DNA from: Bythopirellula goksoeyrii
Lineage (GTDB): Bacteria > Planctomycetota > Planctomycetia > Pirellulales > Lacipirellulaceae
Direction of reading: 5' to 3'
Length of the DNA: 64,000 nucleotides
Assembly: GCF_008065115.1 (NCBI RefSeq)
Contig: NZ_CP042913.1
Coordinates: 5,963,257-6,027,256 of the forward strand
Positions 4,749 through 22,727 of the stretch are shown here, in pieces; position 1 is the first letter of the stretch; each line of letters starts with the position of its first letter. A program made the translations under genes and the position numbers. The notes beneath the pieces were generated by a model. That model saw only the letters and a program-made list of their open reading frames with translations, made no database searches and was not told the origin of the DNA.

Positions 4749-5519
4749 TCATTTGCCTTCTCCGGTCTTGAAACTATAAGCCACCGGTTCAACGGGCACG
4801 CCCGATTTGGACTGGAAGTTGATGTGCGACCTGCTGTTGATTCCCAGTTGATACTCGTGATTCGGCTTGAGAATCACAGGAAGAATGCAGGTCTTCCCAT
4901 TGGAAGACCATTTGGCCTTTTTTCCTTCAGGCAATTCTGGAAACTTGTCTCCTCCACCCATCCAACTCATCCCCTTACTCATGGGTACGTTGAATGTAAC
5001 TCGCAACGCCTTGGTTTTAGGATCAACGTCGGTCGCGCCATTCTCAGGAACCATCTTGACTATTTGCGGCATACCAGTCGTGGAGAAATAGATGACCGTA
5101 GGCGGCACTGGCTCATCTTCTTCACTGCGGAAGTTTTGATAGCTTGTGGAGTTGATTCCCACGCGGTACTTTTTGCCAGCCTTGAGTTTTACCGGCAATA
5201 CACAGGTTCGTTTATCACGCCAATGTGCTTCAGCGCCCTTCGGAACCTCGGGAAAGAGAGGCGGTCCGCCGGTCCAGCTCATGCCCTGCTGCATGTCGCG
5301 GTCGAAGGTGATCGTGATCTCCGATTTCTTGGGATCGACACCAGCAGCGCCGATATCAGGGGATGTTGCCACGACCCACGCGGGAAGCTCGTTGGGCGGA
5401 TCGTCAGTTTCGTTGGTCGCACTGGTGACGTCCGTCATCGGTACGTAAGCGAGTATCACACCCAATAAAGTTGCGTACCACCAGGTTTTGTTGCGTGTTT
5501 GAGCAAATTGATAATTCAT
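4749..5519 (-). CDS. Secreted protein with two SbsA-type Ig-like domains
   Basis: 256 residues from the ATG at 5519, which has GGAGG five bases upstream; the earlier ATG at 5531 overlaps that ribosome site. An N-terminal hydrophobic segment suggests export. Two copies of a domain of about 100 residues follow. Each contains 'ITFDRDMQQGMSW' or 'VTFNVPMSKGMSW', then a Trp-containing strand, 'C-V/I-L-P-V', and 'YRVGINS' or 'YQLGINS'. This is the bacterial Ig-like Big_5/SbsA-like fold. Each domain has one Cys in the same strand. It is probably an extracellular protein; the binding partner is unknown. Confidence 0.75.
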   Translation of the reverse strand: MNYQFAQTRNKTWWYATLLGVILAYVPMTDVTSATNETDDPPNELPAWVVATSPDIGAAGVDPKKSEITITFDRDMQQGMSWTGGPPLFPEVPKGAEAHWRDKRTCVLPVKLKAGKKYRVGINSTSYQNFRSEEDEPVPPTVIYFSTTGMPQIVKMVPENGATDVDPKTKALRVTFNVPMSKGMSWMGGGDKFPELPEGKKAKWSSNGKTCILPVILKPNHEYQLGINSRSHINFQSKSGVPVEPVAYSFKTGEGK

Positions 5520-5534
5520 AATTTCCTCCAAGTC

Positions 5535-6209
5535 TTATGACGGATCAATGCTGACCTCTGAGTTTGTCACGGGAAAACATTGTGCCAGCAACGGGATCGG
5601 AGCGCAGATCGACCAACACACATAGTTATGAACTACCCAAAACCAATTCATGAATGGCGAACGGAGAGATCGGTCGGAAAGATGCTTCGGATACCTAACT
5701 TTATGAAACTGGGCATTGTCGTAGGCGATCCGTAGATCTTGGATTGAGCTAAAGGGAAACACGATTGCAGCGTAGGGACCGCATTCTCCTGAAGGGCGAC
5801 GTAAAAAGGACAATATAATCGAACCGATTCCCAGTGGAATGAAGTAGAGGTAAAGGTGTGCCCCGATGCCCGTCTGGGCGGCGATCAATCCGCAGCAAAG
5901 CAGCAGAACAACTGCGATGATTTGAGAGCAATTCCAATATCGCGTTTTTGTAAAGCGAACTGTGGAGTTCGACTCAAGCAGCAATAGCAGCCGTTGGAAG
6001 TAGTTCCATTCTGGCTTAGTGAGCACCACAAGATGGTCTTCGCAATCGTCGTAGTGATACCAGACCGCGTCGGCAACGTACATCACGGCATCGTCACCCG
6101 AAACGCGAAACTCGTCCAAGGCCTCGTCAAACTCAAAAGCCGTGAGCTGTTCACTAAGGTAACTGCGAATCAAGGCAGCAAGATCGTTTCGAGCAGTGCG
6201 ATCGATCAT
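5535..6209 (-). CDS. Hypothetical protein with central membrane segments
   Basis: The protein has 224 residues and I do not recognise a family. The N-terminal 95 residues are soluble and acidic ('EFDEALDEFRVSGDDAVMYVADAVWYHYDDCEDH'), a pattern seen in small planctomycete proteins of unknown role. Two hydrophobic helices follow (about 112-128 and 130-150), then a cytoplasmic or outer segment. It ends 15 bp before the Ig-like gene's upstream start region and runs on the same strand, so the two may be co-transcribed. Confidence 0.55.
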   Translation of the reverse strand: MIDRTARNDLAALIRSYLSEQLTAFEFDEALDEFRVSGDDAVMYVADAVWYHYDDCEDHLVVLTKPEWNYFQRLLLLLESNSTVRFTKTRYWNCSQIIAVVLLLCCGLIAAQTGIGAHLYLYFIPLGIGSIILSFLRRPSGECGPYAAIVFPFSSIQDLRIAYDNAQFHKVRYPKHLSDRSLRSPFMNWFWVVHNYVCWSICAPIPLLAQCFPVTNSEVSIDPS

Positions 6210-18582: not shown

Positions 18583-18620
18583 TCGGCTTTTGATTTCTTT
18601 TCCCGAGAGGAGTGGGTCTC

Positions 18621-20327
18621 ATGAATGCCACATCGAATGCGAGAATCTCTTCCGACTTTTCAAAGCATCTTGGTTGTTTGACATTAATTTTTCTCCTATC
18701 GCTCAGTTCTTTGAGCTACGTCAATGCTATTACAATCAACGGGACCCAAGTTCTTGGGGGAACGATTGCCGGTCAACCCGTCACTCCTCCCTCACCTTTT
18801 GTTCAAGGTGGGGGGACTCTGGCCAGCCTTTTCAATACGGCTGCCGATTTGTGGGAACAAGGAATTCTCGATATTGACACCATAAATCTGCGCTACGGAT
18901 GGGCTGATCTCGATGGCGGAATACCTGGAAGTGGACCACTTGCGATCGCTCAAGGACTCGACATCGCTTTTAATAGCAGCTTCAACAGCGGCGGATTCTA
19001 CGCTTTGTACATGGACCCTGTGCCGACCGACGAGATCGAGTACAATCATCTTTGGAAAGAAGAGGCCGACCTAGGTGTAGGCACGGTCAACGTGGCCCGA
19101 GTCCACTACCAACCCAACATTCCAGACGCTTCGACCTTCGATATCTTGTCGGTAGCCAACCATGAAATTGGTCACGCATTGGGTATTCAGAATCTGGGCC
19201 CCTCTCCGTATGTGATCAATCCCCCCCTACCGTTCGCCGGCTCGCAAGTTCCGCTCGTAGGATCGAATCACTTCAATATCACATTACCTCCCTCGATTCC
19301 GCCCGGGTCACTGCCGAATGAGCCTCGTTCGCTAATGGCGCCTACGATTCGTACGGGGGTACGATATCTTCCTAGCGACATCGACTTCCTAGCCGCTGCG
19401 AGTGTGAATGGGTGGACCCAAACGAATCTCAATCCACGCGGTGGACCTACGACCGGCACGCCTTACGCCAAATGGTCGCAGTTGCCCATGAACATGAAGG
19501 GGGAAAATATACCCTCTGAATTCGACTGGCGCGAAATTATGAAGCAACCCGCAGATCGCGATCCGATGGGTGTCCCTGCGATTACCGCGGCTGATGATTT
19601 CCAATCGGATGGTCGGCCGATTGAGGCGATTCGTTGGTGGGGTTCGTACTTTGGTGATCTCCCCTACCCTGAGCCAGAGCATATTCCGCCTCGTGAACTG
19701 GGGTTCGCGATTTCCTTTTTCTCCGATATCCCAGTCGACCCGAGCATTCCAGGATCGTTTAGCAAGCCTGGTCAATTGCTGGGGACTTACAAACTACCCA
19801 TTGAGAAAGTAGAGCTCACGGGAACCGACATGCTGGGTTGGGACGGACACAACATTGTGAAATATGAGGCAAAACTGGAAGATGCCTTTCTGGATCACGC
19901 GATTGCCGGCCTTTCTGAGCCGGAGGCTTTTTATGAAGTGGCCGGCGACATCTATTGGATGTCCATCGCCGCTTGGGATGGCCACCGACTCCTCCCTGAT
20001 GGAACCTCCGTCGATTCGGGTGAACCAGTGCGCAAAGTTACCATCGACCCTCTTACGGGAGTTGTCATCGACATAGATCACCTTTGGGGCTGGCATACGA
20101 GCCCTGATAGCTGGAACGACGTGGGGGTTACGGGAACGCTCGATATGTATAATCCCCCTACCGATTGGGACTACGACAACTGGCGACCATTCCCTCCTCT
20201 GCACGGTGATGATAATTTCGCATTCGAACTATTGACAAGCATCCCCGAGCCGAGCAGCCTCTTGCTGTGCATGGGTCTTGCCATTTGTATCGCACTGCGG
20301 AGGACCTCGTCACAAGGCCCCTGCTAG
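18621..20327 (+). CDS. PEP-CTERM protein with metzincin-like protease domain
   Basis: 568 residues from the ATG at 18621 (AGGAG eight bases upstream). Signal peptide first. A matrixin-like region includes 'GILDIDTINLRYGWADLDG' and the zinc motif 'NHEIGHALGIQN' (His181, Glu182, His185). The third metzincin ligand position holds Asn instead of His or Asp, which would weaken zinc binding unless another residue serves. The second half ('DRDPMGVPAITAADDFQSDGRP') resembles domains of other planctomycete surface proteins. The end is I-P-E-P, hydrophobic helix, R-R-T. The gene overlaps the convergent DUF2156 gene by 18 bases at the 3' ends. Confidence 0.8.
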   Translation: MNATSNARISSDFSKHLGCLTLIFLLSLSSLSYVNAITINGTQVLGGTIAGQPVTPPSPFVQGGGTLASLFNTAADLWEQGILDIDTINLRYGWADLDGGIPGSGPLAIAQGLDIAFNSSFNSGGFYALYMDPVPTDEIEYNHLWKEEADLGVGTVNVARVHYQPNIPDASTFDILSVANHEIGHALGIQNLGPSPYVINPPLPFAGSQVPLVGSNHFNITLPPSIPPGSLPNEPRSLMAPTIRTGVRYLPSDIDFLAAASVNGWTQTNLNPRGGPTTGTPYAKWSQLPMNMKGENIPSEFDWREIMKQPADRDPMGVPAITAADDFQSDGRPIEAIRWWGSYFGDLPYPEPEHIPPRELGFAISFFSDIPVDPSIPGSFSKPGQLLGTYKLPIEKVELTGTDMLGWDGHNIVKYEAKLEDAFLDHAIAGLSEPEAFYEVAGDIYWMSIAAWDGHRLLPDGTSVDSGEPVRKVTIDPLTGVVIDIDHLWGWHTSPDSWNDVGVTGTLDMYNPPTDWDYDNWRPFPPLHGDDNFAFELLTSIPEPSSLLLCMGLAICIALRRTSSQGPC

Positions 20328-21314
20328 ACGCAGCGAGGCAATGATGCGCACATCGTTGAATAGGCACTTCGATGAGTAATAGGTCTGTTCTTCTTGGCCG
20401 GCAAAACGGCGTTTGAAGTCGGCATGACCCGCCAGGTTGTAAAAGTAGCGATTGATCCACCAGGCGTTCAGTGCGCGGCTCCAACTGAAATGGAGCAGCG
20501 GGTTAGCACGAAACTCACCGTCGGTAATCGCAGCCATGGGCGACAGCCCCAGCATGACGCACTCGACCCCTTCGCTCTGAAACTGCTCGATGGCCACCTT
20601 CATAATTCCTTCTTCAGCCCGGAGAGGTGCCTCCGGGAGGCGACGTTTGATGGCGGGCGAGTAGCCCACGACTTCGCCAGCCTGACAAATGGGATCGAAG
20701 AAAATGAATGCCTCGGGATCGCCAGCGGGTGAAAACAGGAAAAACTTGCGTACATCGATCTCGTCGGCATACACGATTGGTCGATTGAAGAAGTAGACAT
20801 CGCGTGTCGTGCGTCGCTCGGCTTGCCAACGTGCAGAGAGCTCACGTATCTCGCTTACAGAAACGTCCGAAGCAAAGGTTCCTTCGCGAATCTCGTAGCT
20901 GTGCTTGGCGAGCCAATTGGTGGCGTGGCGGAGTCGTTCCTTTTTCTTGCCGGCAAAGCTGTAACTGGCCAAATCCAGCCGGGTGTCACAACCCATCTCG
21001 TTGATCCAAAAGCCCCGTTCTTGGAGCAGGATGGCTGTCCCCTTTGAGATTTGCCAAAAACAGTTCCTGGGAAATTCCTTTGTGAAGGCCGAGAGCAAGG
21101 GCGCATGCAACTCAGGAGCACCTACGGGATCGGCCAACACGCAGGCAATGCCCCATTTCCGGCGGAAGGCGAGATACGCTTCGCCATGCCAAAAGTACTC
21201 AAGTCCTGGCTGCACCGCCGTGGAATAGGCCTGCGTAAACGATCCGAACTGCCGCACGAGTTGCAGCCGCCGGTCGGGGGCGTCCAAGGCTATTGGGGGA
21301 ACAGCTGGTGGCAT
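20310..21314 (-). CDS. DUF2156 / phosphatidylglycerol lysyltransferase-like protein
   Basis: The protein has 334 residues, matching the C-terminal soluble domain of MprF-type aminoacyl-phosphatidylglycerol synthases (two GNAT-like halves): 'FGSFTQAYSTAVQPGLEYFWHGEAYLAFRRKWGIACVLADPVG', 'GKKKERLRHATNWLAKHSYEIRE', 'AFIFFDPICQAGEVVGYSPAIKRR', and 'EEGIMKVAIEQFQSEGVECVMLGLSPMA'. It has no transmembrane flippase part, so it is the free-standing form. In the family it adds an amino acid to a lipid, but free-standing copies may have other acceptors. It is convergent with the PEP-CTERM protease-like gene. Confidence 0.8.
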   Translation of the reverse strand: MPPAVPPIALDAPDRRLQLVRQFGSFTQAYSTAVQPGLEYFWHGEAYLAFRRKWGIACVLADPVGAPELHAPLLSAFTKEFPRNCFWQISKGTAILLQERGFWINEMGCDTRLDLASYSFAGKKKERLRHATNWLAKHSYEIREGTFASDVSVSEIRELSARWQAERRTTRDVYFFNRPIVYADEIDVRKFFLFSPAGDPEAFIFFDPICQAGEVVGYSPAIKRRLPEAPLRAEEGIMKVAIEQFQSEGVECVMLGLSPMAAITDGEFRANPLLHFSWSRALNAWWINRYFYNLAGHADFKRRFAGQEEQTYYSSKCLFNDVRIIASLRLAGAL

Positions 21315-21494: not shown

Positions 21495-21523
21495 TTGACA
21501 ATCTGTGAAACCCAGGTTACTCT
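21495..21523 (+). promoter_or_regulatory. Putative sigma-70 promoter ahead of the tandem RNA elements
   Basis: TTGACA at 21495-21500 is a perfect -35 box, with a 17-base spacer and TACTCT at 21518-21523 as a weaker -10. It points toward the structured elements and the PEP-CTERM gene at 21984. Transcription would begin near 21530. A short perfect inverted repeat ATTAGA/TCTAAT (21566-21583) lies in the transcript. Confidence 0.5.
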
Positions 21524-21623
21524 AGGAACTAGTGGGAGCGTTTCCCCCAACAATCCAACAACTGAATTAGAGTCTGATCTAATACTGAAGACAGTTTAAA
21601 CACCTCGATTATCCTCAGGATAC

Positions 21624-21711
21624 CGCTAATTTTACGAGCGACTCCCCAATTCTTCTTTCGTCAGCCAAGCATTTGGTTGATTTGTTAGAGGCATTAGGGA
21701 GTCGCTTTTTT
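21624..21711 (+). ncRNA. Structured RNA element 1 with terminator-like end
   Basis: The unit begins CGCTAATT. An outer stem pairs 21638-21646 (GCGACTCCC) perfectly with 21697-21705, extendable by A-T at the base. An inner hairpin pairs 21661-21668 with 21673-21680 around loop GCAT. A T6 run follows the outer stem. The second unit 169 bases downstream shares the start, the CCAAT word after the 5' arm, and the layout. Function unknown; it could be a terminated small RNA or an attenuator in the leader of the PEP-CTERM gene. Confidence 0.6.
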
Positions 21712-21792
21712 AGTGAACTGCAAGAAATTCGACTCTTGGCGACAAGTTTTAGATAGAACCGAACCCTAGCAGCTAATATCCCCCCAGGAAAA

Positions 21793-21885
21793 CGCTAATT
21801 AGTCAAACGATTCACCAATCCTCCCCTTCTTATCCCCGGCATATCCGGGTGGCGTGCTTGGGTAGTTTTTGTGAATCGTTTTTTA
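21793..21885 (+). ncRNA. Structured RNA element 2, paralogue of element 1
   Basis: Begins CGCTAATT. The outer stem 21805-21815 (AAACGATTCAC) pairs perfectly with 21871-21881, and an inner CCCGG/CCGGG hairpin lies at 21835-21849. A run of T (21879-21884) ends it. Aligned without gaps to element 1 at the 5' side, three outer-stem pairs change on both strands (G:C to A:T, C:G to T:A, C:G to A:T), keeping the stem intact. The PEP-CTERM gene starts about 100 bases downstream. Confidence 0.6.
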
Positions 21886-21983
21886 ATGGTCTCACGAGTC
21901 TGCACCGACGAAATAATCTTACACACCAAGAATACTTACCCTTTCATTTCAACTTAGATGGAATCCTCTTTGGAGAAGAACTA

Positions 21984-22727
21984 ATGTTTCGCTTTCAGAA
22001 AATCCTTCTTTCGGCACTGGCTTCGCTGTTAATTGCACCCCTTGCCCAGGCATCTCTGATTCATCCCGATGTGATGGGTGCCACAGTCACCTTCAAGAAC
22101 ATTGAAGAAAGTTCGCCAAGTAGCGATCCGCTGCCACTCTATGGTCAGCCGGGAACCAATGGCGATGAACTCATCTTTCCCACGACAGGTAATTTCTCGG
22201 CTTCCTCACTCGATGGAAACGCTTCCGACCAGACTGACGGAAAGCTGAACCTGATGATTGTTGCCAAATCGGGTTTCTTTCTCGACAGTTTTACGATTAG
22301 CGAGGAGGGATTGGTTCTGCTAGACGCTCCCTTTGGCGGCGATGCATTTGCCTCGGTGAATGCATTTGGAATTGCGAAAGTGGTTGAGGTTTCAGGAGTT
22401 CCAGTCAACATTCCGGTCATTAATTTTTTCCTGAGTGCATCTCCCTTGGGAGGTCAGTATCAGCTGTCGGTGATCGGAGGATCTTCCTATGCAGCCGGCT
22501 GGCAGGCATCGTCATTAGTAGGACTACCGCAAAACACGACGAAGGTAAATCTTACGCTTGACAACAATCTATTTGCTTCGTCGACAGGTCAGGGAACGAG
22601 AGCCTTTATCGACAAGAAAGCGTTTGAAATCGACGTTGAAACCTCAGTCCCCGAACCGCATACCCTGTTGCTGGGAGTCGCAGGTATTTTGGCGTTTGCC
22701 GGAAGTCGCCGCGGGTCTTTTGCTTAA
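21984..22727 (+). CDS. PEP-CTERM sorting domain protein
   Basis: 247 residues from the ATG at 21984, with GGAGAAG upstream; an upstream in-frame start would run through the RNA element and is rejected. Signal peptide (ending A-Q-A-S). The body is probably all-beta ('DVMGATVTFKNIEESSP', 'DGKLNLMIVAKSGFFLDSFTISEEG'), resembling other planctomycete surface proteins of unknown role. The C-terminus is V-P-E-P, hydrophobic helix, R-R-G-S-F-A. A strong terminator follows. The long leader containing two structured RNA elements is unusual. Confidence 0.8.
   Translation: MFRFQKILLSALASLLIAPLAQASLIHPDVMGATVTFKNIEESSPSSDPLPLYGQPGTNGDELIFPTTGNFSASSLDGNASDQTDGKLNLMIVAKSGFFLDSFTISEEGLVLLDAPFGGDAFASVNAFGIAKVVEVSGVPVNIPVINFFLSASPLGGQYQLSVIGGSSYAAGWQASSLVGLPQNTTKVNLTLDNNLFASSTGQGTRAFIDKKAFEIDVETSVPEPHTLLLGVAGILAFAGSRRGSFA

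Follow-up and report, generated by a model that had tools for sequence, protein, structure and literature searches.

Tandem attenuators read by a protein are known from the pyr operon, where the sites for PyrR overlap the antiterminators. The RNA elements described here, which precede genes for PEP-CTERM proteins in planctomycetes, resemble this arrangement in that several successive terminators on one transcript would be read by one factor. In contrast to the antiterminator overlap of the pyr operon, complementarity between their conserved box and hairpin is no better than chance, and the reader is putative. 5'-UTR attenuators and attenuator regulons were described by Naville and Gautheret in 2010 (PMC2965389), with terminator-like leader hairpins common to non-homologous genes of one set, as is the case here, and a tandem leader at rimP; the terms Planctomycet-, Pirellula and PEP-CTERM are absent from that paper's main text.

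Leader RNA for exopolysaccharide-related genes is represented by the epsC motif of Bacillus (PMC2864571), with LoaP antitermination as a parallel (PMC12691694). The present elements differ from these in having no Rfam match and in repeating both box and terminator. For epsC, there is one element per operon.

Upstream of proteobacterial PEP-CTERM genes, sigma-54/PrsR sites have been reported, together with large non-coding upstream regions for most PEP-CTERM genes and the expectation that regulators outside the sigma-54 class were still to be found (Haft 2006, PMC1569441). Such sites, too, are a cis element common to PEP-CTERM genes and located in their long upstream non-coding regions, but they are DNA promoter elements of Proteobacteria, whereas the element described here is an RNA lying behind a TTGACA-type site in planctomycetes. 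In Methylophaga nitratireducenticrescens GP59, three c-di-GMP riboswitches flank PEP-CTERM genes and a further one flanks a VPLPA-CTERM gene, and their transcript levels have been compared between biofilm and planktonic culture (PMC12530212); RNA control near PEP-CTERM genes is, as such, already known. There too, RNA elements adjoin a small set of neighbouring PEP-CTERM genes, but those riboswitches belong to a known class, whereas the present elements match no Rfam model and consist of a box and a terminator-like hairpin, often repeated. The Rhodopirellula-1 motif is a candidate cis element in Planctomycetes and Proteobacteria that carries no Rfam number in the table listing it (PMC2864571).

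Within the portion of the open-licence PMC literature that was covered, no description of this leader element was found, and one paper dealt with RNA elements beside PEP-CTERM genes (PMC12530212). The family may have been described earlier under another name, for instance as Rhodopirellula-1 or in the 2017 list of 224 candidate RNAs. Viewed here as a candidate family of 5' leader attenuators, the elements appear to be new in two respects: dissimilar proteins are linked to them through a common sorting signal, and the module of box and terminator is repeated. The presence of the same element before many PEP-CTERM genes of related bacteria suggests a common RNA control element. It is a concrete, testable candidate regulator of PEP-CTERM genes outside Proteobacteria, and an RNA element whose partner is a sorting signal and not any single family of proteins.

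Two RNA units upstream of a PEP-CTERM gene

The window, that is, the whole stretch of 64,000 nucleotides that was analysed, covers positions 5963257-6027256 of a single-contig genome of 6,473,141 bases (genome G000). Two structured units lie within it, upstream of a gene that is itself preceded by a Shine-Dalgarno-like GGAG at 21972 (Table 1). Both units open with CGCTAATT, at 21624 and at 21793, and align without gaps over their first 27 nt, through CCAAT. In each, an outer stem of 11 pairs runs into six T. This common start and the shared layout of stem, hairpin and T run had been reported in a preliminary description of the sequence and are confirmed here, as are the three pairs that differ on both sides between the units (G:C/A:T, C:G/T:A, C:G/A:T) and the TTGACA-17-TACTCT promoter 100 nt upstream. 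The end given there for the first T run, 21711, is also right, whereas the second run ends at 21884 and not at 21885.

Table 1. Features of the predicted leader and its gene, in window coordinates
Feature	Position	Strand	Remarks
Probable promoter of the leader, TTGACA-17-TACTCT	21495-21523	+	TTGACA 21495-21500, 17 nt, TACTCT 21518-21523
Extra upstream box, GATCTAAT	21576-21583	+	GAYCTAA enriched before first units
CUAAU box of unit 1, GGATACCGCTAATT	21618-21631	+	CTAAT near 5' end in 37/42 units
Unit 1	21624-21711	+	Structured RNA element upstream of PEP-CTERM gene
Unit 1 hairpin	21636-21707	+	Outer stem 21636-21646 with 21697-21707, inner hairpin within; fold z and covariation
Unit 1 T run, terminator-like	21706-21711	+	Six T
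CUAAU box of unit 2, GGAAAACGCTAATT	21787-21800	+	CTAAT near 5' end in 37/42 units
Unit 2	21793-21884	+	Structured RNA element upstream of PEP-CTERM gene
Unit 2 hairpin	21805-21881	+	Outer stem 21805-21815 with 21871-21881; fold z and covariation
Unit 2 T run, terminator-like	21879-21884	+	Six T
Downstream gene, 247-aa PEP-CTERM protein, presumed target	21984-22727	+	PF07589 E 1.2e-4, above cut-off

When compared with dinucleotide shuffles, unit 1 has a fold z of -7.40, with none of 200 shuffles as good, and unit 2 has a z of -2.69 in context, with 5 of 200 as good, or -3.45 when trimmed. Both folds are retained within the whole predicted leader. The earlier view that neither unit is a known riboswitch or small RNA agrees with Rfam, which has no match in the window at gathering score and, below threshold in the two-unit region, nothing relevant (only Chlorobi-1 on the minus strand, E 0.64). 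In 13 related loci, Rfam 15 matched only 23S and 5S rRNA, and no c-di-GMP riboswitch class.

Relatives, covariation and anatomy of the units

A DNA search for the window units in 59 related genomes, the window's own included, found the same two units in synteny in one other genome (locus L014). A pattern scan upstream of homologues of the window gene's protein, followed by reading of the stretches, revealed further units in G010 and G006, such that four of 30 homologue loci showed units: those of the window, of G004 (a genome of the same genus), of G010 and of G006. A covariance model afterwards found units near some other homologue loci (G035, G030), and no unit was found at L158, a further relative of the window protein. 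With units at so few of these loci, the protein family alone is no predictor of the leader. The pattern CGCTAATTN{8,28}CCAAT has five matches in the window's own genome, three of them lacking a hairpin of the unit type.

At E<=0.05, the covariance model R1 matched 15 of the 43 family genomes searched. In the window's own genome it scored the two units at 1.3e-14 and 1.2e-12, and the other three matches had E values of 0.28 or worse, two of them being the reverse strands of the window units themselves. Model R2 matched 20 of 40 genomes at E<=0.1, all sampled from the window's own family, taken as Lacipirellulaceae, or 19 of 40 once G034, where the match is a boxless hairpin only, is discounted. 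At E<=0.01, R2 matched 21 of 296 genomes of the order, 18 of them in the window's family; in a phylum sample, where searches over 40 genomes run stricter filters and no other genome of the family is listed with a match, it matched one of 392, namely the window's own. Judging from these counts, the detectable family has its centre in Lacipirellulaceae, and other parts of the order contain weak relatives.

Weak matches outside the family lie at L149 (4156-4244), L150 (4081-4180) and L151 (4228-4329), with E values of 5e-4 to 3e-3. The exact CTAAT is absent in all three, the box reading CTAAC in L150 and CTGAT in L151, while L149 lacks a clear one. All three are followed by a PEP-CTERM ORF, which suggests that the element may be older and more widespread than the model detects.

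The two window units belong to an RNA family with a covarying outer stem. In a MAFFT alignment of nine units, 94.0% of the outer-stem cells are paired, against 82.9% in shuffles and 33-53% in slid controls, and 16 cells are changed on both sides, against 6.3 in shuffles; none of 500 shuffles was as high in either respect. Further pair types showed no excess among the nine units (12 against 12.3 in shuffles). Among 27 units from forward matches (alignment A6), a set that leans towards this stem because it was gathered with a model of it, so that the nine-unit test is the cleaner one, both sides have changed in 11 of 13 outer pairs, 94.6% of cells are paired, and 76 cells are doubly changed against 23.3 in shuffles. 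The covariation score of these 27 units is 0.636, as opposed to 0.272 when shuffled and 0.10-0.20 when slid, and further pair types are not above shuffles (25 against 23.3). Covariation between the two window units alone, on which the preliminary description had built its claim of a selected RNA structure before a PEP-CTERM gene, is thin evidence; it is the relatives that make the evidence strong. That description had staked the claim on further homologues with covarying stems, and many have been found.

It is scarcely credible, in light of these data, that the units are DNA-level elements, such as binding sites or mobile repeats, whose folding is an accident of palindromy. The hairpins are nearly palindromic, and for this reason yield weak matches of the model on the reverse strand. 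However, their pairs change together while the sequence drifts, the box and the U run are strand-specific, the units are not dispersed in the window's own genome (two strong matches only), and they lie upstream of a gene and in its direction in all 24 loci counted below.

The anatomy of the units was taken from 24 readable loci with 42 units, in 10 single, 10 double and 4 triple arrays. This sample was drawn from 28 distinct places matched by R2 in the family at E<=0.1. Left out were two arrays at a contig end with an unreadable downstream gene (G005:C662 and G021:C66, loci L141 and L142), and two plain boxless hairpins that were excluded after being inspected (G034:C7 and G008:C85, loci L147 and L148; E 0.072 and 0.082). 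L147 is followed by a PEP-CTERM ORF, and L148 by an ORF without the signal, which we take to be RsmH-like. The sample also omits L092, matched by R1 only (a 70-nt match before a reverse gene, with no same-strand ORF within 450 nt), as well as reverse-strand echoes and L149-L151, which belong to other families of the order.

Each unit consists of a CUAAU box, a long hairpin with a median fold energy of -42.9 kcal/mol (42 units), and a U run. The five units that do not have CTAAT near the 5' end differ from it by one base, and the box typically reads GGnAACGCTAAT in the genus and AGAACTAATCC in some other genera. A T run of at least five, and of up to eight, closes 41 of the 42 units. In the 110 nt that precede the first unit, taken over all 24 loci, the related motif GAYCTAA, which was spotted by eye first and counted afterwards, is found nine times, against about 0.27 expected, at a distance of 21-37 nt in eight cases and of 107 nt in one. 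The predicted accessibility of CUAAU is moderate, with a mean unpaired probability of 0.56, and of 0.25 and 0.40 in the window units.

Association with the PEP-CTERM sorting signal

Among same-strand ORFs that begin no more than 450 nt from the array, the longest, picked without regard to its C-terminus, carries a PEP tail at 23 of the 24 loci. The lone exception is L087, at which 860 nt separate the array from the start of the PEP-CTERM gene and a 159-aa ORF lacking the signal comes in between. Four of the loci (the window, L078, L079 and L082) were found via the protein and are therefore circular evidence; among the 20 found via the RNA model, the tail is present in 19. Ranking by length irrespective of strand puts an overlapping opposite-strand ORF first at three loci (L143, L145, L146), giving 20 of 24, and if the two boxless matches and L092 are restored, the same-strand count is 24 of 27. 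By comparison, these loci contain 249 other ORFs of 200 aa or more, of which 19 carry a PEP tail. The base rate in the window's own genome is about 3%, as 143 of 150 scored PF07589 matches (from 316 candidates, some scored in one frame) are above cut-off against 5007 protein genes (PMC11588811). With the three weak loci of other families included, there are 27 downstream proteins; PEP is invariant in every one of them, and 23 match PF07589 at E<=0.05.

At E<1e-6 over more than 80 residues, the downstream proteins fall into 11 BLAST groups for the 24 loci and 14 for the 27, and lectin-like, amidase and metalloprotease domains are found among them. The number of groups indicates that the leader goes with the sorting signal and not with one protein. 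For instance, the array in G008, which is similar to that in G007, precedes a PEP-CTERM protein of a different BLAST group from those in G006 and G007; judged from these sequences, the leader appears to have remained recognisable in front of differing genes. The arrays at L081 (4990-5391) and L080 (1436-1917) are alike, with similarities of 0.80 for the first and 0.76 for the last units, and precede PEP-CTERM proteins of different BLAST groups, as though either leader or coding sequence had been swapped.

Two side observations concern single genomes. G010 has four further single-unit leaders (L083, L084, L085, L086) before four PEP-CTERM proteins that show no mutual BLAST similarity at E<1e-6. 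At L087, the 159-aa ORF (5332-5811) is preceded by a three-unit array and followed by the PEP-CTERM gene at 6019, and its start, GGAGAAGAACCAATG, resembles that of the window gene.

The window's own genome has on the order of 140 PEP-CTERM matches above the Pfam cut-off, those in the window (18612-20327 and 21984-22727) included. In genome-wide model searches and at 30 further PEP-CTERM loci, read as stretches of about 3 kb around the C-terminal motif in which the starts of long genes may be missed, only the gene at 21984 was found with a leader. One leader among so many PEP-CTERM genes argues against the leader as a general control of such genes in this genome.

Proposed attenuation and its alternatives

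Sites of the form TTGAC-N16-18-NANNNT are found within 200 nt before the first unit at 17 of the 24 loci, and TTGAC alone at 22. The window's own site was not listed by a generic promoter scan because its -10 box, TACTCT, matches the consensus at only three of six positions. None of the 18 gaps between units has such a site, in a scan that covered sigma-70-like sites in the gaps, as distinct from the units themselves and from other promoter types, and whose power is limited by the shortness of the gaps (1596 nt in total). TTGAC occurs once in these 1596 nt as against 25 times in 4800 nt upstream, and four times in 3125 nt between the last unit and the start codon, which is about chance. The last unit lies 29-216 nt from the start codon at 23 of 24 loci, and several of these gaps (29-60 nt) are too close for another promoter. 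Given a promoter-like site before the array and none in the gaps, the units are most simply, and probably, parts of one 5' leader.

We consider it fairly probable that the 21984 gene has a 5' leader in which the two window units serve as tandem transcription-attenuator modules, read by a trans-acting factor. The start site, termination, its regulation and the factor that reads the box are here inferred from sequence. RNA polymerase would start about 95 nt before unit 1, producing a leader of about 450 nt in which each module presents a CUAAU box followed directly by a long hairpin and U run resembling an intrinsic terminator. By default, some or most transcripts would stop at the hairpins. The trans-acting factor, probably an RNA-binding protein or a component of the elongation complex, would read the CUAAU boxes, the GAUCUAAU box before unit 1 included, and would alter read-through and in this way set the output of the sorted surface protein. 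Two features expected of attenuators can be compared with the data: a hairpin with a covarying stem is followed directly by a U run in the direction of the gene in 41 of 42 units, and the place between promoter and start codon is given by predicted sites, the promoter-like site before the array at 17 of 24 loci and the start codon after it at the distances noted above.

The preliminary description had offered two guesses at the role of the units, leader attenuators or a tandem pair of small RNAs. The former is favoured by the position of promoter-like sites, by the short distance to the start codon and by the near-constant association with PEP-CTERM genes, and a pair of independent small-RNA genes is disfavoured. 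The units might still be small RNAs, or also give rise to them: stable molecules of about 90-180 nt, ending at the U runs, that would act in trans through CUAAU as a seed, their place before PEP-CTERM genes reflecting regulation of that gene set. Each unit does have a discrete hairpin and U run with a conserved box next to the hairpin, transcription from the 21495-21523 promoter to 21711 would give an RNA about 180 nt long, and leader-derived small RNAs exist, as for UpsM before the dcw cluster (PMC5089854). We regard this as unlikely, as the missing sigma-70-like sites in the 18 gaps make units 2 and 3 unlike separate genes, Hfq (PF17209) has no match in the genome at E<=1, and the units stay linked to their downstream gene in 11 BLAST groups of PEP-CTERM proteins, a linkage that a trans-acting RNA would not need.

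At about 70 nt, the hairpins are longer than is usual for an intrinsic terminator; they could instead be RNase III sites or stability elements in the 5' UTR. Here, long imperfect stems would be cut or would shield the mRNA, and regulated termination would play no part. The length and stability of the leader hairpins and their tandem arrangement in 14 of 24 loci are consistent with such a role. It is nonetheless decidedly improbable, since the U run of 5-8 after 41 of 42 units is not needed for processing and the CUAAU box is left without explanation.

A further alternative, that the units are constitutive insulating terminators which only stop read-through from upstream genes, is in our view very improbable. 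The units are terminator-like and lie between genes, and the upstream gene is co-directional at L090, L091, L094 and L096. In the window, however, the gene upstream runs divergently (20310-21314, minus strand), the units follow the probable promoter instead of preceding it, gaps of 29-60 nt to the start codon leave little room for a promoter, and insulation needs neither a conserved box nor PEP-CTERM partners. The arrays at L090, L091, L094 and L096, from four genomes and three other genera, follow the same two genes, a case of conserved synteny. These presumably encode a sugar-kinase-like and an amino-acid-kinase-like protein, as judged by eye.

Returning to attenuation, a self-contained, riboswitch-like switch with an antiterminator formed between box and hairpin was considered and rejected. 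The energy of the box-hairpin duplex is no better than with shuffled hairpins (mean z +0.21, with one of 42 units below -2), and it is from this that we infer a trans-acting reader of the box. More tentatively, a factor reading the CUAAU boxes may let polymerase pass one to three successive terminators and so co-switch PEP-CTERM genes that have no sequence similarity. If so, planctomycetes would control their exosortase-sorted surface proteins by a dedicated mechanism at the RNA level. The PEP-CTERM system would then have, in addition to the c-di-GMP riboswitches of Methylophaga, a new class of leader RNA and factor, and the leader would be one that passes from gene to gene where only the sorting signal is shared. 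The CUAAU box would provide a handle for finding the putative factor.

Four other identities of the box were rejected. The rRNA leader of the same genome carries an ordinary boxA, TGCTCTTTGA, and has no CTAAT in the 700 nt before 16S, which speaks against a boxA/Nus site. Conservation stops at CTAAT and the next bases vary (TAATCC, TAATAC; by eye), unlike a -10 promoter box, and the spacing to the stem is not in threes (by eye), as would be expected for a cryptic ATT start codon. An overlap of CTAAT with the start codon of the gene (GAACTAATG at 21978) is not a general feature, being found at only four of 27 genes, all of one BLAST group.

In eight multi-unit arrays of the genus type, each unit was compared with the units of the other arrays; for 13 of 16 first or last units the best match there holds the same position, as opposed to only one of four middle units. 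Between G007 and G008, the first units have a similarity of 0.80 and the last of 0.76, and between G000 and G004 the corresponding values are 0.84 and 0.77, compared with 0.60-0.62 for units within an array.
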